Shown here in pieces: positions 43,135 to 54,334 of a DNA stretch of 64,000 nt. The notes under the pieces were generated by a model. The model saw nothing but the letters and a program-made list of their open reading frames with translations. It was not told the origin of the DNA and did no database searches. Position 1 is the stretch's first letter. Every line of letters begins with the position of its first letter. Source of the DNA: Afipia felis ATCC 53690. GTDB lineage: Bacteria > Pseudomonadota > Alphaproteobacteria > Rhizobiales > Xanthobacteraceae. The position numbers were made by a program, and so were the translations under genes. The DNA is taken from the NCBI RefSeq assembly GCF_000314735.2, contig NZ_KB375270.1, positions 1,612,001 to 1,676,000 of the forward strand. Reading direction: 5' to 3'.

Positions 43135-44136
43135 ATGAACAGCGCAGATGTCGAGAAACTGGAAGACGTGATCGTTCGTTCCGCCGAGCAACTGGCGGGC
43201 AGCATCCGCGCCGCGCGTCAAGCCGTCTCCACCGTGATCTTTGGCCAGGAGCGCGTTGTGGACAACGCGCTGGTGACGATCCTTGCGGGCGGCCATGCAC
43301 TGCTGATCGGCGTGCCGGGTCTCGCCAAGACCAAGCTGGTCGAGACGCTCGGCGTCACGCTCGGCTTGGACGCCAAGCGCGTACAGTTCACGCCTGACCT
43401 GATGCCGTCCGACATCCTCGGCGCGGAAGTTCTCGACGAGAGCGCGGCGGGCAAGCGCTCATTCCGTTTCATCGCCGGTCCCGTATTCGCCCAACTTCTG
43501 ATGGCCGACGAGATCAACCGCGCCTCGCCGCGCACGCAGTCGGCGCTGCTGCAGGCGATGCAGGAGCAGCACATCACGGTGGCGGGCGCGCGGCACGACC
43601 TGCCGGCACCGTTTCATGTGCTCGCCACGCAGAACCCGCTCGAGCAGGAAGGCACCTATCCACTGCCCGAAGCGCAGCTCGACCGCTTCCTGATGGAAAT
43701 CGACGTCGGCTATCCCGACCGCGAGGCCGAACGCAAGATTCTGTTCGACACCACCGGCGCGGAGCAGACGACGGCGAAGGCGGCGATGACCGCCGACACT
43801 CTCATCACAGCGCAGCGGCTAGTGCGCCGACTGCCGGTCGGCGATTCTGTGGTCGAGGCGATCCTCACGCTGGTGCGCTCGGCGCGTCCGGGCGAAGACG
43901 GCGGCGAGCCTGCGAAATCCATCGCATGGGGTCCGGGCCCGCGCGCGAGCCAAGCCCTGATGCTTGCGGTGCGCGCCCGCGCACTGCTCGACGGCCGCCT
44001 TGCACCCTCCATTGATGACGTGCTCGAACTCGCCGAGCCGGTCCTGAAGCATCGCATGGCGCTGACCTTCTCCGCCCGTGCCGAAGGCGAAACCGTCACC
44101 GGCGTGATCGGGCAGTTGAAAGCACGGATCGGTTGA
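43135..44136 (+). CDS. MoxR family AAA+ ATPase
   Basis: 333 residues: Walker A GVPGLAKTKLVE, Walker B LMADEINRASPRTQSALLQAMQE, sensor region ATQNPLEQEGTYPLPEAQLDRF and the C-terminal lid helices (GPGPRASQALMLAVRARALL). MoxR ATPases act as chaperones for maturation or assembly of VWA-domain partners, which are encoded just downstream. AAGGAGCAGG precedes the ATG. Its TGA overlaps the next ATG. Confidence 0.93.
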   Translation: MNSADVEKLEDVIVRSAEQLAGSIRAARQAVSTVIFGQERVVDNALVTILAGGHALLIGVPGLAKTKLVETLGVTLGLDAKRVQFTPDLMPSDILGAEVLDESAAGKRSFRFIAGPVFAQLLMADEINRASPRTQSALLQAMQEQHITVAGARHDLPAPFHVLATQNPLEQEGTYPLPEAQLDRFLMEIDVGYPDREAERKILFDTTGAEQTTAKAAMTADTLITAQRLVRRLPVGDSVVEAILTLVRSARPGEDGGEPAKSIAWGPGPRASQALMLAVRARALLDGRLAPSIDDVLELAEPVLKHRMALTFSARAEGETVTGVIGQLKARIG

Positions 44137-45068
44137 TGGCCGCGGCCCTCAAACCGGCGCTCACCGAAATCGAAGCGATCCGGCGTGCCGACGGCGAAAG
44201 CCGCTCGCTCGCCGCGTCGATGCCGCGTCTCGTGCTGGAAGCACGGCGGATCGCTGCAACGGTGATCCACGGATTGCATGGGCGGCGACGAGCAGGCACC
44301 GGCGAGAATTTCTGGCAGTATCGTCGCTTCGTCTCCGGCGAGGCGGCACAGCGCGTCGACTGGCGGCGTTCGGCGCGCGACGATCACTTGTACGTTCGCG
44401 AGCAGGAATGGGAGGCCGCACACACGGTGTGGCTGTGGCCGGACCGTTCCAGATCGATGGCCTTCGCGTCCAAGGCGGCGCGCGACAGCAAGCTCGAGCG
44501 CGCCATCGTGCTGAGCTTTGCGCTCGCTGAACTGCTGGTCGCGGGCGGCGAGCGCGTCGGCATTCCCGGCCTGATGCGGCCAAGCGCAAGCCGCGGCATC
44601 ATCGACCGGATGGCGCAGGTGCTGCTGCACGATGTGTCCACACGCGACAGCCTGCCGCCGGGCTTTGTGCCCGCCTCGCTCGCCGAAATCGTGGTGCTCT
44701 CGGATTTCTGGTCGCCGCTCGACGAGATCGCGGCGATGATTGCGGGCCTGTCGGCGTCCGGCGCACGCGGCGTATTGCTGCAGATCGTCGATCCGGCAGA
44801 GGAAACCTTCCCCTATTCCGGCCGCGTCGAATTCAATGAACCCGAAGGCGGGGGCGCGATTATTGCGGGGCGCGCGCAGAACTGGAAGGACGATTACACC
44901 GCGAAGCTCGCGCAGCACCGCGACAGCATCCGCGCGGAAACCGCACGGCGCGGCTGGCTGTTCTCCACCCATCGCACCGACCGTTCCGCTGCTGAACTGC
45001 TCTTGTATCTGCATCAGGCGCTTGCCGCGTCGCGCGAAGGCAACGCCAGATCGGGATGGCCGGCATGA
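44136..45068 (+). CDS. DUF58 protein
   Basis: 310 residues with the DUF58 signature GTGENFWQYRRFVSGEAAQRVDWRRSARDDHLYVRE, followed by a VWA-like part (VWLWPDRSRSMAF). This cytoplasmic family is nearly always encoded next to MoxR and VWA genes. ATG at 44136 overlaps the moxR TGA. Confidence 0.88.
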   Translation: MAAALKPALTEIEAIRRADGESRSLAASMPRLVLEARRIAATVIHGLHGRRRAGTGENFWQYRRFVSGEAAQRVDWRRSARDDHLYVREQEWEAAHTVWLWPDRSRSMAFASKAARDSKLERAIVLSFALAELLVAGGERVGIPGLMRPSASRGIIDRMAQVLLHDVSTRDSLPPGFVPASLAEIVVLSDFWSPLDEIAAMIAGLSASGARGVLLQIVDPAEETFPYSGRVEFNEPEGGGAIIAGRAQNWKDDYTAKLAQHRDSIRAETARRGWLFSTHRTDRSAAELLLYLHQALAASREGNARSGWPA

Positions 45069-47902
45069 CCGGATTGCCGCTCTCCTTCACCGAACCGTGG
45101 CTGCTCGCAGGGCTGATCGCCCTGCCCGCGCTGTGGTGGCTGTTGCGCGTGATCCCGCCGCGCCCGGTGAAGGTCGACTTTCCACCGACCCAGCTGTTGC
45201 TCGACATCAAGCCCCGCGAGGAAACACCGTCGCGTACGCCGTGGTGGTTGACAATGTTGCGGCTTCTCGCTGCGGCGTTGGTCATCTTCGCCGCCGCAGG
45301 ACCGGTCTGGAATCCGAAGGGCGGCGCGGGCGCATCCTCAGGCCCGCTGGTGATCCTGCTCGACGACGGCTGGAGTGCGGCCGCAAGTTGGGAAGCGCGC
45401 ATCCGCTCCGCCGATGAACTGATCTCGCAGGCCGATGCATCCCGCCGCGCGATCGCGCTCGTGCCTCTGTCCGAACCTGCACGCGACATCAGCCTGATGC
45501 CCGCAGGCACCGCGCGCGTCGCGCTGCGTCAGTTCGCGCCGAAACCCTACGGCATCGACCGCAGCATCACGCTCCCGCTCATCAAGCGTTTTCTCGGTGA
45601 GATCGGCGACGCCAGCATCGTCTGGCTTGATGATGGAATCGATAGTGGGCGCGGCGCAGACTTCGTGGGCGGCTTGCGCGACGCCATCGGTGACCGCGCA
45701 CTGACGATCTATGAGGGTGGCACGCCGCCCGCGCATGCGCTCGCCGCCGCCGAGAATGCTGCCGCGAAAATGACCGTAAAGGTGCTGCGCGCGAGCGGCG
45801 GTATCGAGTCCGGCATCGTGCGCGCGCTTGACCAGAAGGGCGCGCCGATCGGCGAGACACGTTTCGCGTTCGACGCCGCCGCGCACGAGACCGAAGCAGC
45901 GTTCGATCTTCCGGTCGAATTGCGCAACGATATCGCGCGTCTTGAGATCGCAGGTGAGCGTTCCGCGGGCGCCGTTCAGCTTCTCGACAAGCGATGGCGG
46001 CGGCGCGCCATCGGCATCGTCTCCGGCGCCAGCACCGATATCTCGCAACCCTTGCTGGCCACGACCTTCTATCTCACCAAGGCGCTTGCACCGTTCGCCG
46101 ATGTGCGCACAGCAGAACACAGCGCGCCCGACGACGCGATCAAGCAGTTGCTCGATCAGAAAGTGCCGATGCTGATCCTCGCAGATGTCGGCACGCTGTC
46201 ACCGGAATTGCATGCGCGGCTCGACGACTGGATCGCGCAAGGGGGCGTGCTGGTTCGTTTCGCAGGGCCTCGCCTCGCGGCCGGCGACGACGATCTGGTG
46301 CCGGTAAAGCTGCGGCGCGGCAACCGTAGCCTGGGCGGTACGCTGACGTGGGAGAAGCCGCAACACCTCGCGGCCTTTGCAGCTGATGGACCATTCGCCG
46401 GTTTGCCGGTACCTGACGACGTCACTGTGACGCGGCAGGTGCTCGCAGACCCCGATCCCGCGCTCGCCTCAAAGGTCTGGGCCTCGCTTGCCGACGGTAC
46501 GCCGCTCGTCACTGGCGAACGGCGCGGCAAAGGCGTGCTCGCGCTATTCCACGTCAGCGGCGACACCCGGTGGTCGGATTTGCCGCTGTCCGGCACGTTC
46601 GTCGAAATGCTGCGCCGGATCGTCGACATGGCGGGTTATGCGGATGTCGCCGGAAGCAGCTTCAATTCCGACACCAAGGTCGAGACGGTGGCGCCGACGC
46701 GCGTCCTCGATGGCTTCGGCGCCTTCACCGCGCCACCCTCCACCGCCAAGCCGGTGAAGGCCGATTATCGCGGCCGCGCCAGCCTCGATCATCCGCCCGG
46801 ATTCTACGGCCCGGTCGACGGTCCCGTTGCAGTGAATACGCTCGCAGCCACCGACCGCCTGACGCCGCTCGATACGTCATCGCTCAACGCGACACGCGCG
46901 AGTTACACTAACGCCGAACCGCGCGACCTGCGCGGGACCCTGCTCTCGCTCGCGCTTCTGCTGTTCGTTCTGGATGCGATCATCATCGCTATCCTCGGTG
47001 GCGCAATCGCCGGATTGCTGCGGCGGCGCACCGTTACCACGGCGCTCGCTCTGGCTGTTATGCTGAGCGCGTTTGGTCCGCACGCTCTCGATGCGCAAAC
47101 CCCGCCCGCGAAACCTGCGGCAACCTCGAACGCCGCCAAAGACGACTTCGCCATCAAGGCGGTATCGCAGACGCACCTCGCCTATGTCGTCACTGGCAAT
47201 GCCGAGGTGGACAACATCGTCAAGGCGGGCCTCAGTGGCCTGTCGCTGTTTCTCGCGCAGCGCACGGCACTCGAGGCGGGCGACCCGATCGGCGTGGATC
47301 CGGCCAAGGACGAACTCGCATTCTTCCCGCTGATCTACTGGCCGGTGATCGCGGACGCGCCGAAGCCATCGCAGGAAGCGATCAACAAGCTCGACGCCTA
47401 CATGAAGAACGGCGGCACGGTGCTGTTCGACACCCGTGACGCGATCGACGCGCCGCCGACCTCGAACGGAGAATCGCAGACGCCGGGCATGATGGCGCTG
47501 CGGCAGATCCTATCATCGCTCGACATTCCCGAACTGGAGCCGATCCCGCGCGAGCATGTGCTGACGAAGACTTTCTATCTGCTGCGCGATTTTCCGGGCC
47601 GCTTCACCTCGGGCCAGACCTGGGTGGAAGCGCTGCCGCGCGATGGCGACGATGACGGCGTGGAACGCCCCGCGCGCGGTGGCGACGGCGTCTCGCCCAT
47701 CATCATCACCTCCAACGACCTCGCCGGTGCGTGGGCGCTGCGGCCCGACGGCCAGCCGATGCTTCCGCTGACACCGGGCGAGCCGCGCCAGCGCGAATTC
47801 GCGTTCCGGGCTGGCGCCAACATCGTGATGTACACCCTGACCGGCAACTACAAGGCTGATCAGGTCCATGCCCCTGCTCTGATTGAAAGGCTCGGGCAAT
47901 GA
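45065..47902 (+). CDS. BatA-like membrane protein with DUF4159 domain
   Basis: 945 residues in order: BatA-type N-terminal pair of helices (about 8-28 and 62-80), a VWA-like domain with degenerate MIDAS (D100-D-G-W-S104, lacking the first Ser of DxSxS), a long periplasmic middle part, a further helix pair (about 626-675), a signal-like turn (ALDAQTPPAK), and a C-terminal DUF4159 domain (about 700-945, IYWPVIADAPKPS, NGGTVLFDTRDA, YLLRDFPGRF). The start ATG overlaps the preceding TGA (ATGA). Large, multi-domain, inner-membrane anchored. Confidence 0.82.
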   Translation: MTGLPLSFTEPWLLAGLIALPALWWLLRVIPPRPVKVDFPPTQLLLDIKPREETPSRTPWWLTMLRLLAAALVIFAAAGPVWNPKGGAGASSGPLVILLDDGWSAAASWEARIRSADELISQADASRRAIALVPLSEPARDISLMPAGTARVALRQFAPKPYGIDRSITLPLIKRFLGEIGDASIVWLDDGIDSGRGADFVGGLRDAIGDRALTIYEGGTPPAHALAAAENAAAKMTVKVLRASGGIESGIVRALDQKGAPIGETRFAFDAAAHETEAAFDLPVELRNDIARLEIAGERSAGAVQLLDKRWRRRAIGIVSGASTDISQPLLATTFYLTKALAPFADVRTAEHSAPDDAIKQLLDQKVPMLILADVGTLSPELHARLDDWIAQGGVLVRFAGPRLAAGDDDLVPVKLRRGNRSLGGTLTWEKPQHLAAFAADGPFAGLPVPDDVTVTRQVLADPDPALASKVWASLADGTPLVTGERRGKGVLALFHVSGDTRWSDLPLSGTFVEMLRRIVDMAGYADVAGSSFNSDTKVETVAPTRVLDGFGAFTAPPSTAKPVKADYRGRASLDHPPGFYGPVDGPVAVNTLAATDRLTPLDTSSLNATRASYTNAEPRDLRGTLLSLALLLFVLDAIIIAILGGAIAGLLRRRTVTTALALAVMLSAFGPHALDAQTPPAKPAATSNAAKDDFAIKAVSQTHLAYVVTGNAEVDNIVKAGLSGLSLFLAQRTALEAGDPIGVDPAKDELAFFPLIYWPVIADAPKPSQEAINKLDAYMKNGGTVLFDTRDAIDAPPTSNGESQTPGMMALRQILSSLDIPELEPIPREHVLTKTFYLLRDFPGRFTSGQTWVEALPRDGDDDGVERPARGGDGVSPIIITSNDLAGAWALRPDGQPMLPLTPGEPRQREFAFRAGANIVMYTLTGNYKADQVHAPALIERLGQ

Positions 47903-49965
47903 CGCAGTACGGCATCGCGTTCACCCCCCTGGTCCCCATGTTCGTGCTGTGGCTCGGGCTTGCGGCGACGCTTGTCATCGTGGCGGTCTCGCTGCTGCGT
48001 CGCGCGCGCGGTGCGTTGTGGCGCACAGCCGCGCTGGCCATGATCCTGCTCGCGCTCGCCAACCCCTCCTTGACCCGCGAGGCGCGTGAGCCGCTCTCCT
48101 CGGTCGCCGCCGTCATTGTCGACAAAAGTCCAAGCCAGAGCTTCGGCGACCGTGCCAAGCAGACCGACCGGGCGCGCGACGCGCTGCTTGAGAAGCTGCG
48201 CGCCATCAAGGGCCTCGACGTACGGGTGGCCGACGCCGGACAGGCGGATGGCGAGACCGACGGCACGAAACTGTTCTCCGCACTCTCGGCCACGCTCTCC
48301 GATGTTCCAACCGACCGCATCGCGGGCGCGTTCTTCATCACCGACGGACGTGTGCACGACGTTCCGGCCAATGCCGCAACACTCGGCTTCCAGGCGCCGG
48401 TCCATGCGCTCATCAGCGGCCATTCCGGCGAGCGCGACCGCCGCATCGCCATCGTCTCCGCGCCGCGCTTCGGCATCGTCGGGCAGGCGCAGACCATCAC
48501 CTTCAAGCTCGACGATCAGGGGGTGACGGGCGAGCGCGCCGAGGTCACCATCCGGCGGGACGGCGAAGTGCTGAGCCGCCGCACGCTGACGAGCGGCGAG
48601 ACCGGGCGCATTCGGCTCGAGATTCCCCATGCAGGCCAGAACATCGTCGAGATCGAAGCGTCGCCTCTCGAGGGCGAACTGACGCCGGTGAACAACCGCG
48701 CCGTGGTTTCGATCGACGGCGTGCGCGACAAGCTGCGCGTGCTGCTCGTCTCCGGCGAACCGCATGCGGGCGAGCGCACCTGGCGCAACCTGTTGAAGTC
48801 CGATGCAAGCGTCGATCTGGTCCACTTCACCATTCTGCGTCCGCCGGAGAAGCAGGACGGCACGCCGATCAACGAATTGTCGCTGATCGCCTTCCCGACG
48901 CGCGAACTCTTCCAGCAGAAGATCAACGAGTTTCAGCTCATCATCTTCGATCGCTATGCCCGACAAGGTGTTCTGCCGACTGCATATTTTGACAACATCA
49001 CGCGTTACGTGAAGAACGGCGGCGCAGTCCTCGTGGCGGCCGGACCGGACTATGCCAGCCCGACCTCGATCTGGCGCACGCCGCTCGACGCCGTACTGCC
49101 GGCCGAGCCTGTCGACGTCACCGAGAAGGCCTTTCACGCCCGCCTGACCGACATCGGCAAGCGCCATCCGGTCACGCGCGGACTACAAGGTGCGGCGAGC
49201 GACCCGCCGCATTGGGGCCGGTTCTTCCGCATCGTCGATACCCGCAATCCCACCGTGCCGCCGGTGATGGAGGGTGCGAACGGCGAGCCGTTGTTGCTGT
49301 TGTCGCGGCAGGGCGAAGGCCGCGTCGCGCTGCTGCTCTCGGATCAGATCTGGCTGTGGGCGCGCGGCTATGAAGGCGGAGGGCCGCACCTCGACCTGCT
49401 GCGGCGGCTGTCGCACTGGCTGATGAAGCAACCCGAACTCGACGAAGAGGCGCTGCGGCTGAAAACGCAAGGCCACGATCTCGTCGTCACGCGCCAGACC
49501 ATGGCCGACACCGTCAAGCCCGTGACGGTGACATCACCTTCAGGCAAGATCCGCGAGGTCACGCTCGCCGCAAGCGAGCCCGGCGTGTGGCGCGCAACGC
49601 TTCCCGCCGACGAACTCGGCCTGTGGCAGGCAACCGATGGCTCACTGAAGGCGCTCATCAGCGTCGGGCCGACGAACCCGAAGGAATTCTCCGAGGTCAC
49701 CTCGACGACACAGACCCTCGCGCCGCTGACCAAAGCAACCGGCGGCGACACGCGACGAATTTCAGAATCCGGCACCGTCGAACTGCCGCGCATTCTGCCG
49801 ATCCACGGCTCAACCGTGTTCGAGGGCTCCGGCTGGCTCGGCCTCAAGATGCGCGATGCCAGCGTGGTGCGCGGCATCGGCGCCTTCCCGGTGTTCGCAG
49901 GCCTGATCGGGCTCCTGCTGCTGCTCGGCGCCTTCGCAGCCACCTGGGTGCGCGAAGGACGGTAA
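47899..49965 (+). CDS. VWA-like and GATase-like membrane protein of the MoxR operon
   Basis: 688 residues: two N-terminal helices (about 10-32 and 41-56), a VWA-like domain with an intact MIDAS start (D75-K-S-P-S79) and FFITDG (Asp149), a beta-sandwich middle, and a glutamine amidotransferase-like part (about 290-500; LIIFDRYARQGVLP, NGGAVLVAAGPDYA) that lacks the catalytic Cys. Ends with a C-terminal helix (about 657-680) and a basic tail. Start overlaps the preceding stop by four bases (ATGA). Confidence 0.82.
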   Translation: MTQYGIAFTPLVPMFVLWLGLAATLVIVAVSLLRRARGALWRTAALAMILLALANPSLTREAREPLSSVAAVIVDKSPSQSFGDRAKQTDRARDALLEKLRAIKGLDVRVADAGQADGETDGTKLFSALSATLSDVPTDRIAGAFFITDGRVHDVPANAATLGFQAPVHALISGHSGERDRRIAIVSAPRFGIVGQAQTITFKLDDQGVTGERAEVTIRRDGEVLSRRTLTSGETGRIRLEIPHAGQNIVEIEASPLEGELTPVNNRAVVSIDGVRDKLRVLLVSGEPHAGERTWRNLLKSDASVDLVHFTILRPPEKQDGTPINELSLIAFPTRELFQQKINEFQLIIFDRYARQGVLPTAYFDNITRYVKNGGAVLVAAGPDYASPTSIWRTPLDAVLPAEPVDVTEKAFHARLTDIGKRHPVTRGLQGAASDPPHWGRFFRIVDTRNPTVPPVMEGANGEPLLLLSRQGEGRVALLLSDQIWLWARGYEGGGPHLDLLRRLSHWLMKQPELDEEALRLKTQGHDLVVTRQTMADTVKPVTVTSPSGKIREVTLAASEPGVWRATLPADELGLWQATDGSLKALISVGPTNPKEFSEVTSTTQTLAPLTKATGGDTRRISESGTVELPRILPIHGSTVFEGSGWLGLKMRDASVVRGIGAFPVFAGLIGLLLLLGAFAATWVREGR

Positions 49966-50035
49966 CCGCAAAGCCACAGATGGCGACGGCCTGCGCCGCC
50001 ATCCCCAGCGCCAGATTGACATCCCCGGAACTTCC

Positions 50036-50054
50036 GATGTTACATTGTAACATC
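50036..50054. promoter_or_regulatory. Candidate Zur box upstream of DUF2946 gene
   Basis: GATGTTAC-ATT-GTAACATC is a perfect inverted repeat with eight-base arms. The inner 17 bases, ATGTTACATTGTAACAT, resemble the enterobacterial Zur consensus ATGTTATAATATAACAT (14 of 17, consensus from memory). It is 38 bases upstream of the chosen DUF2946 start and would control it and the TonB receptor. Confidence 0.75.
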
Positions 50055-50092
50055 CGGTGACCTTAAGTCCCGGCATGGGGAATTTGTCTGTC

Positions 50093-50449
50093 ATGGACTG
50101 GGTTCGGTCGAAAGCCAAACGGCTGTCGTTGCTGGCGCTCTTCGCGCTGGCGATGCAGATCGGGCTGTCGTTCGGCCACACCCATGTCGCGGCGTGGTCC
50201 GCCGATCGGATCCAGATCGCCGCCAATTCCTCGACCGGCGGTCCTTCCGCCCATCACGACGCCGACGCGATCTGCGCAGTTTGCGTCACCGCCGCGATGG
50301 CGGCGAGCGGCCTGCATGCGGCCGCACCCGTGCTGCCGCTTCCTGCGTCGTTCTCGACCGTCGCCTTCGCGCTGCAGGCACTCAACGACGCGCCGCCCGC
50401 GCGCACCGCTGCATTTCATTCGCGTGCCCCTCCCCCCGTCCTGACCTGA
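50093..50449 (+). CDS. DUF2946 family protein
   Basis: 118 residues: an N-terminal hydrophobic segment (LSLLALFALAMQIGLSFGHTHVA), a His/Asp patch (AHHDAD) and the DUF2946 centre CAVCVTAAMAAS. Contains GHTH and CxxC elements that could bind metal. Such genes are often found beside metal-uptake TonB receptors. ATG choice is uncertain (50075 also possible). A candidate Zur box lies directly upstream. Confidence 0.72.
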   Translation: MDWVRSKAKRLSLLALFALAMQIGLSFGHTHVAAWSADRIQIAANSSTGGPSAHHDADAICAVCVTAAMAASGLHAAAPVLPLPASFSTVAFALQALNDAPPARTAAFHSRAPPPVLT

Positions 50450-50538
50450 CCTCCATTACGGCCGTTTTCCAGCGGCCGCATTTCAATCACCCGCGACCGC
50501 TGCCGATGTGCAGTTCGCGGTGTCAGGATCAGTTCAAG

Positions 50539-52938
50539 ATGTCCCGTTTCCACCTTCGCGCTTCGCTCGCCAGCGCCTCGGCGATTTCGCTTGCCGTGTT
50601 CGGCCATTCCGTCCACGCGCAACAGGCGACGCCGCCCGCGGCCCCACCCGCTTCAACGCCCGCGCCTGCCGCTTCTTCCGGCACGGTGCTGCCGGAAATC
50701 ATGGTGCATGCACCGAGCCCCATCGACCATCACAGGCATCGCCCTGTCGTCGCGGCGAGGCACGGCAGCGGCTCGGCGCGCGCTCACGGCAAGCCGAAAG
50801 AAAAACCTGCCGCGCCCGCTGTTGCCGAGAACGCGCCTGCGCCTGCACCATCGCAGGGCGCGCTGCCGATCGTCACCGATCAGTTCGCGACCGTGACCGT
50901 TGTGCCGAACGAAGAAATCCGGCGCAGCGGCGCGCAGACCTTCGGTGACCTGCTCAACGACAAGCCCGGCATCACCGGTTCGTCCTTCGCGCCGGGCGCA
51001 TCAAGCCGTCCGATCATCCGCGGCCTCGACGTCAACCGCGTCGGCATCGTCGAGAACGGCATCGGCAGCAACGGCGCATCCGATCTCGGCGAAGACCATT
51101 TCGTGCCGATCGATCCGCTCACCACCAATCAGGTCGAGGTGATCCGTGGCCCGGCCACGCTGCGTTACGGCTCGACCGCAATCGGCGGCGTGGTCAGCGC
51201 CGTCAACAACCGCATTCCTGACGCACTGCCCTGCAACCCGGTAACGCCCGCGCAAACCTGGGGCTACGACGTGAAGGCGCCGCCTTCGACATCCGGCTAC
51301 TGCGCCAATTTCGAAACGCGCGCGGGCTATTCCAGCGTCGACAACGGCCGTGAAGGCGCGGTACTGCTGGATGCGGCAAGCAGCAACTTCGCGATCCATG
51401 CCGACGGCTTCGACCGTAAGACCGATAATTACGCGATCCCGAATTCGCCCTACCGTTTCGATCCGACGCGGCCCTTCAACGGCACGCAGCCGAACTCCGG
51501 CACGCGCTCCTACGGCGGATCGGTCGGCGGCACCTATTTCTTCACCGGCGGCTATATCGGTGCGGCGATCCAGCAGAATAATTCGCTCTACCATATCCCC
51601 GGCATCGACGGCGAAGAGCACAACACGCGCATCGACGCCAAGCAGACCAAGTTCACAGCGAAGGGCGAGTATCGTCCGGACGCGGCCGCAATCGACGCGA
51701 TCCGCTTCTGGGTGGGCGCGACGGACTACAAGCACAATGAAATCGGCCTCGGCGACGACGGCACCGACGGCGTGCGCCAGACTTTCACCAACAAGGAGCA
51801 GGAAGGCCGCCTCGAGGTGCAGTTCGCGCCTGTGAATGTGAAATTCGCAACGATGACCTCGGCCGTCGGCGTGCAGGCCTCACATCAGGAACTGACTGCG
51901 CCGAGCCCTGACGACATCGGCAGCCCGTTCAATGGCCTGTGGGATCCGAACAGCAACACCCGCGTCGCCGGTTACTCGTTCAACGAATTCGCTTTCAACA
52001 ACACCACCAAGGCGCAGATTGCGGGCCGCATCGAGCACGTCAACCTCTCCGGCTCGACGCCGTCCTTCATTCCAGAGTTGTTCAACGACACCTCGGCTAT
52101 CGGACCTGCGGTCGCGCGCAATCTCTCCTTCACGCCCGCGAGCGGCAGCATCGGCCTGATCCATAACCTGCCCTACGGCCTCGTTGCCAGCATCACCGGG
52201 CAATACACTGAACGCGCGCCGAAGCCTGCCGAACTGTTCTCGCGCGGCGGTCATGATGCGACAGTCACGTTCGACATCGGTAATCCGAACCTGAAGGTTG
52301 AGACCGCGAAGTCAATCGAGATCGGCCTGCGCAAGAACACCGGGCCGCTCCGGTTCGAACTGACCGGCTACGACACCCACTTCGATGGCTTCATTTACCG
52401 CAATCTCACCGGCAACACCTGCGACGGCACGGCGTGCGTGGCGAACAACAGCCTCGAACTCAATCAGGCGATCTACTCACAGCGCAACGCGCATTTCCGG
52501 GGCGCGGAATTCCAGTTCCAGTACGACGTGATGCCGCTGTGGTTCGGAACGTTCGGCGTCGAAGGGCAGTACGATATTGTCCGAGCAACGTTCGACGACG
52601 GCAGCAACGTGCCGCGCATCCCGCCGCAACGGCTCGGCGGCGGCGTCTACTATCGTGACGCCAACTGGCTCGCGCGCGTCAACCTGCTCCATGCCTTCGC
52701 GCAGAACGACATCGGCGGTATCGAAACATCAACGCCGGGCTACAACCGGCTGAAGGCCGAACTGAGCTACACGACCAAGCTCGCCAAGACCGACTGGTGG
52801 GGGGCGCAGGAAGTTCGTGTCGGCATCGTCGGCGACAACCTGCTCAACGAGGACATCCGCAACGCGGTGTCCTACACAAAGGACGAAGTGCTGCTGCCGG
52901 GCCTCGGCGTGCGGCTGTTCGCCAACATCAAATACTGA
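50539..52938 (+). CDS. TonB-dependent receptor, ZnuD-like
   Basis: 799 residues: Sec signal peptide (ASASAISLAVFGHSVHAQQ); a Pro/Ala and His-rich segment (about 30-105, with HHRHRP) before the plug; plug domain (about 110-250) with FGDLLNDKPGITGSSF, RPIIRGLDVNRVGIVENGI and VEVIRGPATLRYGSTAIGGV; 22-strand barrel with ZnuD-type EEHNTRID, and C-terminal LFANIKY. His-rich tract, DUF2946 neighbour and Zur-like boxes point to zinc uptake; this is inference. Ends at a strong terminator. An in-frame ATG at 50506 is possible. Confidence 0.87.
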   Translation: MSRFHLRASLASASAISLAVFGHSVHAQQATPPAAPPASTPAPAASSGTVLPEIMVHAPSPIDHHRHRPVVAARHGSGSARAHGKPKEKPAAPAVAENAPAPAPSQGALPIVTDQFATVTVVPNEEIRRSGAQTFGDLLNDKPGITGSSFAPGASSRPIIRGLDVNRVGIVENGIGSNGASDLGEDHFVPIDPLTTNQVEVIRGPATLRYGSTAIGGVVSAVNNRIPDALPCNPVTPAQTWGYDVKAPPSTSGYCANFETRAGYSSVDNGREGAVLLDAASSNFAIHADGFDRKTDNYAIPNSPYRFDPTRPFNGTQPNSGTRSYGGSVGGTYFFTGGYIGAAIQQNNSLYHIPGIDGEEHNTRIDAKQTKFTAKGEYRPDAAAIDAIRFWVGATDYKHNEIGLGDDGTDGVRQTFTNKEQEGRLEVQFAPVNVKFATMTSAVGVQASHQELTAPSPDDIGSPFNGLWDPNSNTRVAGYSFNEFAFNNTTKAQIAGRIEHVNLSGSTPSFIPELFNDTSAIGPAVARNLSFTPASGSIGLIHNLPYGLVASITGQYTERAPKPAELFSRGGHDATVTFDIGNPNLKVETAKSIEIGLRKNTGPLRFELTGYDTHFDGFIYRNLTGNTCDGTACVANNSLELNQAIYSQRNAHFRGAEFQFQYDVMPLWFGTFGVEGQYDIVRATFDDGSNVPRIPPQRLGGGVYYRDANWLARVNLLHAFAQNDIGGIETSTPGYNRLKAELSYTTKLAKTDWWGAQEVRVGIVGDNLLNEDIRNAVSYTKDEVLLPGLGVRLFANIKY

Positions 52939-52957
52939 GGCTCTCTCAAGCCTGAGC

Positions 52958-52985
52958 AAAACGGCCGCCCACGGGCGGCCGTTTT
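52958..52985. terminator. Terminator after the TonB receptor gene
   Basis: AAAACGGCCGCC-(4-base loop)-GGCGGCCGTTTT, 12 base pairs with A and T tracts. Confidence 0.9.
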
Positions 52986-53037
52986 CGTTGGGGGTCTTCT
53001 TGCATTTGAGGCTTCTCTTGACATCTAAGGCATAAAG

Positions 53038-53061
53038 TATGTTATGTTATAACATAACATA
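53038..53061. promoter_or_regulatory. Candidate double (overlapping) Zur box
   Basis: A perfect 24-base palindrome (arms TATGTTATGTTA / TAACATAACATA). Two overlapping 17-base frames, 53039-53055 and 53044-53060, each match the Zur consensus ATGTTATAATATAACAT at about 15 of 17 places (consensus from memory). It lies 58 bases before the start of the COG0523 GTPase gene and likely binds two Zur dimers. Confidence 0.8.
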
Positions 53062-53119: not shown

Positions 53120-54334
53120 ATGCAAAAACTCCCCGTCACAGTCTTGTCCGGCTTCCTCGGTGCGGGGAAGACCACGCTGATGAACCATGTCCTCAACAAT
53201 CGCCGCGGTCTGAAGGTGGCGGTGATCGTCAACGACATGAGCGAAGTCAATATCGATGCCGATCTGATCCGTGAGGGCGATGCCAACCTGTCGCGCACGG
53301 ACGAGAAGCTCGTCGAGATGACGAACGGCTGCATCTGCTGCACGCTGCGCGACGATCTTCTGAAGGAAGTCCGCCTGCTCGCCGAAAGCGGCCGCTTCGA
53401 TTATCTGCTGATCGAATCGACCGGCATTTCCGAGCCCTTGCCCGTCGCCGCGACGTTCGACTTTCGCGACGAAAACGGCGACAGCCTGTCCGACGTCGCC
53501 GCGCTCGATACCATGGTCACCGTCGTCGACACAGTGAACCTGCTCAGGGACTACGCATCGGTCGAGTTTCTCAAGGATCGCGGTGAATCCGTCGGCAACA
53601 ATGACAAGCGGACCCTGGTCGATCTGCTCGTCGAACAGATCGAGTTCGCTGATATCGTCATTCTCAACAAGATCGACGCTGCGAGCGCCGGGCAACGTGA
53701 CGCCGCGCGCAAGATCGTCCGCGCGCTCAATCCCGATGCCGATATCATCGAGACCAATTACGCGCGCGTGCCTTACCATCGGGTGCTCAATACAGGCCGG
53801 TTCAATTTCGAGCGCGCGCAACAGCACCCGCTATGGGCCAAGGAGCTCTACGGCTTCGCCGACCACGTGCCGGAAACGGAGGAATACGGCGTCACGAGCT
53901 TCGTGTATCGCGCGCGCCGCCCGTTCGAACCGGTCAAATTCCAGCAATTCCTGCGCGAAAGCTGGCGCGGCGTGATCCGTGCCAAAGGGCATTTCTGGCT
54001 GGCGACGCGCCCGCAATGGCTCGGTGAGCTGAGCCAAGCCGGCGCCATCGTCAAGACCGAGGGGCTCGGCTTCTGGTGGGCGAACGTGCCGGTGGAGCGC
54101 TGGCCCAACGATCCGTTCTGGCGCCAGACGTTGAAGAAGAACTGGAACGATATTTACGGCGACCGCCGTCAGGAAATTGTATTCATCGGGACGGGCATGG
54201 ACGAGGACGCAATCCGCGCGCGGCTCGATGCCTGCCTCGTCAACGGCAAGTCCGGAATGCACACCGATGAATGGTCGGCGTTGCCGGATCCGTTTCCGCG
54301 CTGGCTGCGTGCGGACGAGATCCCGGCCGAGTGA
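53120..54334 (+). CDS. COG0523 zinc-linked GTPase (ZigA/CobW-like)
   Basis: 404 residues: Walker [10 protein letters not shown] (11-19), [15 protein letters not shown] with the metal-binding C71-I-C-C74, NKID G-box, and a long C-terminal CobW_C domain (about 275-404, [14 protein letters not shown]). Large members with long C-termini, under Zur control, are zinc-allocation GTPases. The start at 53120 ([12 protein letters not shown]) is the family start; upstream frame runs through the Zur box. Converges on the GNAT gene. Confidence 0.9.

Follow-up and report, generated by a model that had tools for sequence, protein, structure and literature searches.

What does a small DUF2946-like open reading frame (ORF) do when it is placed between a Zur-type palindrome and the gene of a ZnuD-like TonB-dependent receptor? 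This arrangement is found in a stretch of 64,000 nucleotides (nt) from Afipia felis ATCC 53690 (contig NZ_KB375270.1, positions 1,612,001 to 1,676,000; the whole stretch is referred to as the window), in which a second Zur-type palindrome and a ZigA-type COG0523 GTPase gene follow downstream of the receptor gene (Table 1). The initial annotation regarded the DUF2946 protein as a helper of zinc uptake. Our comparisons contradict that view, as a fixed distance of 46 residues between a CxxC motif and a terminal RAPP or RGPP, and a predicted pairing of the last codons with the ribosome-binding site of the receptor gene, are the marks of a leader peptide. In our estimate, the ORF is probably a Zur-repressed, metal-released arrest-peptide leader that acts as a switch for the receptor gene rather than as a helper.

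The conservation of the leader was followed in 80 named receptor loci of the family, with Afipia, Bradyrhizobium, Rhodopseudomonas, Nitrobacter, and Tardiphaga among them. In 77 of these loci, a leader precedes the ZnuD-like receptor match by at most 1.2 kilobases (kb), and the other three are contig ends with 2, 34, and 171 nt of upstream contig. In a search that required the CxxC by pattern and permitted gaps of 40–52 residues and looser motifs, the distance from CxxC to the terminal motif was 46 residues in all 77 leaders, with RAPP in 67 and RGPP in 10 of them, and this motif ends 2–5 residues before the stop codon in every leader found. The same motifs and the same gap are present in 17/17 leaders of the genus, which were picked by their N-terminal block and come from 17 of the 20 same-genus receptor loci L022–L041 (omitted were L028 and L039, where the leader is absent within the contig stretch, and L041, a paralogous receptor for which no leader was seen). 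An HxH motif precedes the CxxC within 70 residues in 74 of the 77 family leaders and is invariant in the 17 aligned genus leaders, and its distance to the CxxC takes 23 different values from 31 to 58 in the 72 leaders measured, whereas the gap from CxxC to RAPP is constant. As the mean identity within this 46-residue stretch is only 41%, the constant gap points to a ruler set by the ribosomal tunnel rather than by a protein fold. The ORF is most likely translated from the ATG at 50093, which is located at the M-x-W of most relatives, and differences by codon position (0.374/0.295/0.481 in genus leaders) follow the pattern of a translated ORF. All 12 aligned leaders, including the one from the window, match the Pfam family DUF2946 (PF11162) with E values of 0.01 or lower (best 5.2e-9), and 18 of 26 zinc-type leaders of the genus, as counted by hand, exceed the cut-off of that model. 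With a conserved hydrophobic N-terminal block (LSLLALFALA..Q..L.F) that suggests export, a CxxC, a RAPP-like end at a spacing of about 45 residues, and a position at the head of a predicted metal-related operon, the ORF resembles upstream open reading frames (uORFs) of the CruR type.

The export segment, the HxH, the CxxC, and the presumed cotranscription with the receptor gene would also fit an exported protein that binds zinc and assists the receptor. However, the gap to RAPP is invariant although other parts vary in length, the motif is always found just before the stop codon, and the AlphaFold model of the leader, with a helix at residues 2–26, is of low confidence (predicted local distance difference test score 66.8, predicted template modeling score 0.28). 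CutF, a relative that has been tested, is rapidly degraded after export (PMC9973294). We rejected the helper on the grounds of the fixed gap, the terminal RAPP, and the low-confidence fold, and regard it as very improbable.

Support for a switch comes from the RNA. In most of the 17 genus loci, minimum-free-energy folds pair the last codons and the stop codon of the leader with the Shine–Dalgarno region of the receptor gene across intervening stem-loops. We quantified this by a pairing score P, which is the probability that the Shine–Dalgarno core pairs with the 15 nt that follow the PP codons, and used the same 15 nt in shuffled order as control. The mean P was 0.77 in 22 zinc-type leaders (0.17 after shuffling), with 21 of them above 0.5, and 0.99 in 11 copper-type leaders (range 0.95–1.00; 0.18 after shuffling). 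In the 69 family loci that could be scored, it was 0.68 as compared to 0.20, and P exceeded 0.5 in 55 of them. The CTGA of the anti-Shine–Dalgarno ends 9–10 nt past the PP codons in 21/22 zinc-type leaders and 12 nt past them in 11/11 copper-type leaders. A stalled ribosome covers about 10–12 nt beyond its A site. With the footprint taken at this general size, the anti-Shine–Dalgarno is predicted to lie within the region covered by a ribosome stalled at RAPP, as expected for a switch of the SecM type. The paired letters differ between leader types, with a CCUGA/UCAGG core in the zinc type, AUUCCUGA/UCRGGAAU in the copper type, and CACC/GGUG in a third type, and the complementarity is kept. In the two leaders of the third type (L137 and L148), the CACC matches another ribosome-binding site, which reads GGTGAG or GGTGGG. 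A test for covariation, made for one flanking pair on related sequences, reached a Fisher p of only 0.038, and we do not take it as proof.

Table 1. Features of the leader–receptor–GTPase block; positions refer to the window.
Feature	Position	Strand	Basis
TTGACA, likely −35 element of the leader–receptor promoter	50016..50021	+	Sequence; family-wide TTGAC
Zur-type operator A, GATGTTACATTGTAACATC, perfect 19-base-pair (odd) dyad, would overlap the −10 region	50036..50054	.	Kept in genus and family
DUF2946-like leader ORF, 118 residues plus stop codon, predicted arrest-peptide uORF	50093..50449	+	Alignments, motif conservation
HxH (H29, H31), candidate metal ligands just past the export/transmembrane segment	50177..50185	+	Conservation
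CxxC (C61, C64), candidate metal site	50273..50284	+	Conservation
RAPP arrest motif, exactly 46 residues after CxxC	50423..50434	+	Conservation; motif as in CruR
Anti-Shine–Dalgarno GTCCTGAC (50438–50445) and a second CCTGA (50445–50449) that includes the leader stop codon	50438..50449	+	Folding, comparison
Intergenic stem-loop CGGCCGTT..AGCGGCCG between leader and receptor	50459..50478	+	Sequence; minimum-free-energy fold
Receptor Shine–Dalgarno region GTCAGGAT, complementary to 50438–50445 (8 pairs, one of them G-U)	50522..50529	+	Sequence; folding
ZnuD-like TonB-dependent receptor, 799 residues	50539..52938	+	Profile searches, alignment
TTGACA, likely −35 element of zigA	53018..53023	+	Sequence
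Zur-type operator B, TATGTTATGTTATAACATAACATA, perfect 24-base-pair palindrome consisting of two overlapping sites	53038..53061	.	Sequence, genome pattern search, orthologues
ZigA-type COG0523 GTPase, 404 residues from the ATG at 53120	53120..54334	+	NCBIfam score, orthologues

If the arrest at RAPP instead acted as in CruR, the output would be Rho-dependent termination before the receptor gene, and the pairing of the Shine–Dalgarno region would be secondary. CruR of Bordetella pertussis works in this way, with the same motifs and a nearly equal gap of 45 residues (PMC9426467). However, the intergenic region comprises only 88–127 nt in the 17 genus loci as compared to 162 nt in CruR, the position of the anti-Shine–Dalgarno behind the PP codons is kept although the residues of the tail differ, and the third leader type has its own complementary pair, although a good score is obtained for just one of the two members (P of 0.94 and 0.23; 0.15 and 0.09 after shuffling). 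Rho-dependent attenuation is therefore unlikely, and we prefer the leader's last codons as the element that hides the ribosome-binding site.

The initial annotation had described a 19-base and a 24-base Zur-like palindrome, and this description holds. Both are perfect dyads, no match with up to three mismatches to either site occurred in 100 dinucleotide-preserving shuffles of the window, and an exact match to the strict pattern ATGTTANNNTRTAACAT is found just four times in the 4.2-Mb genome, sites A and B included. Site B consists of two 15-mer sites that are offset by 5 base pairs (bp) and share 10 bp, and this two-site layout of the zigA operator is found in 9 of 12 orthologues, including the copy in the window (L250–L261). 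In the 77 family leader loci, the box had no mismatch in 61 cases, one in 14, and two in one case. A TTGAC is located 16–21 nt upstream of the box in all 75 leader loci that have a box with at most one mismatch, and Zur would therefore occupy the −10 region. A consensus sigma-70 scan reported no promoter at this position, where the −10 region would fall inside the operator.

The other two strict boxes of the genome precede a DUF1007 and NicO gene pair, which we take to be zevAB-like and to have a role in zinc handling, and a small His-rich ORF with a znuCB/AztAB-like transporter, so that all four precede predicted zinc genes, in the case of the DUF1007 and NicO pair only by the presumed ZevAB precedent. 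The regulon that had been proposed for this locus is consequently not a local one, while its control by Zur is upheld by the comparison. A search of 29 genomes of the genus for the palindromic 15-mer yielded 58 sites once overlaps were merged, and 53 of these could be assigned: 25 precede the DUF2946 leader, 15 precede znuCB (about 1 kb before znuB), 12 zigA, and one zevA. The leader of genome G011 (L038), which has a box with one mismatch, is not among the 25. Five boxes had no gene assigned by our script, and three of them (in genomes G041, G042, and G044, which were absent from the comparison of znuB and zevA matches) are a few kb away from a second COG0523 gene, as in the genomes that have this gene beside znu. 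A strict box precedes 12/12 close zigA orthologues of the genus, whether these adjoin the receptor gene or are encoded elsewhere, and a close zigA was not found in the remaining 17 of the 29 genomes. Of the boxes in the 17 genus leader loci, 13 have a symmetric form (TTACA/TGTAA or TTATA/TATAA, thus ACA..TGT or ATA..TAT), and four combine the two forms. As the Fur family is represented by four genes in the genome (one Fur-like, two Irr, and one Zur-like), the dyads might be operators of another member of this family, Fur/Mur or Irr. We give this hardly any credence, because 53 of the 58 sites precede predicted zinc genes and because Zur sites of Caulobacter, such as GATGTTATATCATAACAAT, have identical half-sites (PMC4176598). 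Zur control of the block is thus well supported by comparison, with the dyads as the predicted binding sites.

Some observations on the zinc genes elsewhere in the genus stand on their own. The zevAB-like pair with its strict Zur box (L016, 6292–8260; NicO with a His-rich loop) carries this box in the A. felis genome only, and its DUF1007 protein shares 51–58% identity with the usual copies of the genus (69% with one short fragment). The usual copies are about 12–16 kb away from znuB when both are on one contig, and the strict box is absent there. A zinc substrate-binding protein of the ZnuA/AztC type (PF01297) is missing from the A. felis genome (G000) and from G007 and G021, which have the receptors most similar to that of the window; all three genomes are about 99% complete. 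Despite the missing PF01297 protein, znuC and znuB with their Zur-like box are retained (in A. felis, L017, 7783–10628). Of the 22 genomes of the genus that have a znuB match, 17 encode the protein, and the other two misses, G009 and G023, are only 83–84% complete. Between the Zur-like box and znuC, a short His-rich ORF of about 60–90 residues with one hydrophobic segment and the sequence ..PHPAQ..WSILRM.. (L017, 7556–7786; L062–L082) is located in 20 of the 22 znuB loci of the genus, and the other two have no anchoring box. No Pfam family scored above its cut-off for the A. felis copy. We rejected this ORF as a substitute for the missing ZnuA, since genomes that keep znuA carry it as well.

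Which metal would the leader bind? We infer zinc, because of the Zur box, the receptor type, the HxH pattern, and a DUF2946 leader of another family (L306) that precedes a ZnuA-type gene with a PF01297 match. The HxH is present in 22/22 zinc-type and 0/11 copper-type leaders, the latter being our label for leaders with a CC..C and a likeness to CruR. Alternatively, the leader might sense copper, or metal generally, or the secretion state, and block the zinc receptor when copper is present. DUF2946 sensors whose metal has been tested respond to copper (PMC9426467, PMC9973294), and in the A. felis genome itself, the gene of another TonB receptor is preceded by a copper-type DUF2946 leader (L127, G000 C1:552817–553137; one of the leaders with CC..C and RGPP or RAPP at L120–L131). 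However, the Zur box is found with at most one mismatch in 75 of the 77 zinc-type leaders and with fewer than two mismatches in none of the 11 copper-type leaders, the copper-type leaders have CC..C and no HxH, and L306 precedes the gene of a ZnuA-type protein. A copper-sensing leader thus appears quite unlikely to us, and we maintain zinc as the probable ligand. Beyond the family, in 397 genomes drawn evenly from the larger order, DUF2946 leaders with RAPP or RGPP (L301–L309) were found in front of other genes as well, with ABC (ATP-binding cassette) ATPases following L301–L303 and a NosL-like copper gene following L304 and L305, the last two being named by eye.

Several points nevertheless weigh against a zinc-responsive switch. 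The leader might bind copper or a different metal instead of zinc. The leader of the window itself scores below the cut-off of PF11162 (17.1 versus 23.7 bits, E 0.0099), and its P of 0.36 is the weakest of the 22 zinc-type leaders. One of the two third-type leaders has the low score given above, 14 of the 69 family loci have a P of 0.5 or less (in some of them, by eye, the ribosome-binding site had been mis-picked), and 8 of the 77 family leaders could not be scored for pairing. The core helix comprises just 5 bp in several relatives, and when the first 10 nt after the PP codons are hidden, the pairing of the Shine–Dalgarno core only declines from 0.84 to 0.59, as the core still pairs elsewhere. 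When its duplex energy was compared with those of the remaining 15-nt windows in each leader, the anti-Shine–Dalgarno was not outlying (median fraction 0.30 in the zinc type), since windows rich in GC form good pairs by chance; this is a weak test, with a misplaced start in five of the 22 leaders, and the partition-function comparison with shuffled tails, unlike the duplex energies, did single out the anti-Shine–Dalgarno. One of the 77 leaders (L216) has no box, three lack the HxH, and the Zur-like gene of the genome (L004) has Zur as its best NCBIfam match with only 120 bits at a model cut-off of 167 bits.

The mechanism that we propose combines features of the DNA itself, namely the operators, HxH, CxxC, RAPP/RGPP, the 46-residue gap, and the complementarity of tail and Shine–Dalgarno region, with an arrest at RAPP in which the P and A sites hold the two prolines, as adopted from the relatives CruR and ApdP, and with a relief by metal through the CxxC, as adopted from CruR. 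Transcription of the leader would begin when Zur leaves the palindrome over the promoter. As long as metal is scarce, the ribosome on the leader would stall at RAPP and thereby uncover the hidden ribosome-binding site of the receptor gene; zinc that binds to the nascent chain would relieve the arrest, and the site would close again. Metal presumably releases rather than strengthens the arrest, and the freed Shine–Dalgarno region presumably is the output. The receptor would thus be gated twice, by cytosolic zinc via Zur and by the zinc that the nascent exported chain encounters, and ZigA, expressed under a double Zur operator of its own, would contribute to the delivery of zinc within the cell. 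The leader likely represents the zinc counterpart of a type of control that has to date been described for copper, with a predicted shut-off of the receptor when zinc is plentiful. We see about even chances for the more far-reaching view that such a two-compartment zinc gate operates in the Nitrobacteraceae listed above, with a zinc-sensing arrest peptide in series with Zur, the last codons and the stop codon as anti-Shine–Dalgarno, and a RAPP-stalled ribosome that physically keeps the receptor gene open for as long as zinc has not freed the chain. As copper-type leaders of the same genomes share the RNA design, the choice of metal would lie in HxH/CxxC versus CC..C alone, and with zinc-type and copper-type leaders paired in one genome, the metal selectivity can be tested by a ligand swap. 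If true, a family-wide, Zur-linked zinc branch would show metal sensing by nascent chains to be a general layer of metal homeostasis.

As to the two proteins encoded downstream, the receptor has Neisseria ZnuD as its best relative in the PDB (4rdr, E 9.9e-53, with a profile built from 11 receptors), and ZnuD is also its best named relative, although with 235.7 bits it remains far below the cut-off of 950 bits of the ZnuD model NF038289. On these scores, we file it as ZnuD-like only and not as ZnuD proper. Its placement between the palindromes and its His-rich N-terminal segment (HHRHRP) had been stated correctly in the initial annotation, but the segment is limited to the three closest of the 11 aligned receptors. 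The GTPase scores above the cut-off of the ZigA model NF038288 (618.4 versus 600 bits, scored on the 431-residue ORF from 53039), and its likely start is the ATG at 53120, downstream of site B, rather than 53039 inside it. In three further loci (L288, L290, and L291), a Zur box and a leader precede another TonB receptor family that is not ZnuD-like. Upstream of the block, on the same strand (43135–49965), the window encodes a BatA/DUF4159 membrane protein and two proteins identified by eye, an AAA ATPase of the MoxR type and a DUF58-like protein. These genes are ordinary, and we saw no link between them and zinc.

Among known systems, the closest is CruR (Bp2923) of B. pertussis, a copper-responsive DUF2946 uORF with CxxC and RAPP 45 residues apart (PMC9426467). 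The two share the DUF2946 family, an exported N-terminus, a CxxC, a RAPP near the C-terminus at nearly the same distance, and the position as first gene before a TonB receptor; they differ in the Zur-type operator, the added HxH, the ZnuD-like receptor, the shorter intergenic region, and the anti-Shine–Dalgarno at the end of the leader found here, where CruR has a Rho site. According to toeprints, the proline pair of CruR occupies the P and A sites (PMC12992588), and the arrest of ApdP has its prolines in the same positions (PMC10951233). CutF, a copper sensor of Rhodobacter capsulatus, is likewise an exported leader of the DUF2946 family, and the Shine–Dalgarno region of the next gene is hidden in RNA structure, but CutF has a CxxxC and a proline-rich end, copper turns its target on, and its anti-Shine–Dalgarno belongs to an intergenic stem-loop (PMC9973294). 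In the case of our leader, there is a RAPP, the leader's own last codons form the anti-Shine–Dalgarno, and a metal-off logic is to be expected. The metals exported by czcCBA efflux systems include zinc. CzcI of Cupriavidus metallidurans, a DUF2946/CutF-like protein encoded upstream of czcCBA and suggested to be a metal-sensing regulator, differs in that it heads an efflux rather than an uptake operon and lacks the C-terminal proline motif (PMC9973294). SecM, ApdA, and ApdP are likewise small exported proteins encoded ahead of a regulated gene and carry a RAPP-like arrest core close to the C-terminus (RAGP in the case of SecM), but they sense protein export (PMC10951233, PMC12992588), whereas the leader described here has candidate metal ligands and a Zur box. 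The Zur regulon of Caulobacter crescentus resembles ours in the half-sites and in having TonB receptors and a COG0523 gene as targets, and a DUF2946 gene with a predicted Zur site, CC2720, heads the czr efflux operon; this operon serves efflux and is activated by Zur, and the available text of the paper describes no leader function for it (PMC4176598). CzcI and CC2720 can be seen as earlier hints that DUF2946 goes beyond copper. Zur sites before COG0523 genes are known, also from alphaproteobacteria (PMC2770081), and CruR has been linked to copper transporters (PMC12914433). Other DUF2946 leaders may serve nickel or cobalt according to one of two papers whose main texts do not contain the word zinc (PMC9426467, PMC9973294). 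Among the matches listed from the open-licence PMC literature, no title or beginning of an abstract named a zinc-responsive DUF2946 protein or arrest peptide. How RAPP uORFs relay their arrest to the next gene is left open in the available text of the EMBO J paper (PMC12992588), and for this group, the anti-Shine–Dalgarno offers a testable answer. Since RAPP/RGPP uORFs before TonB receptor genes are widespread (PMC12992588), the class as such is known, and the zinc- and Zur-linked branch with its RNA switch would be the new part.

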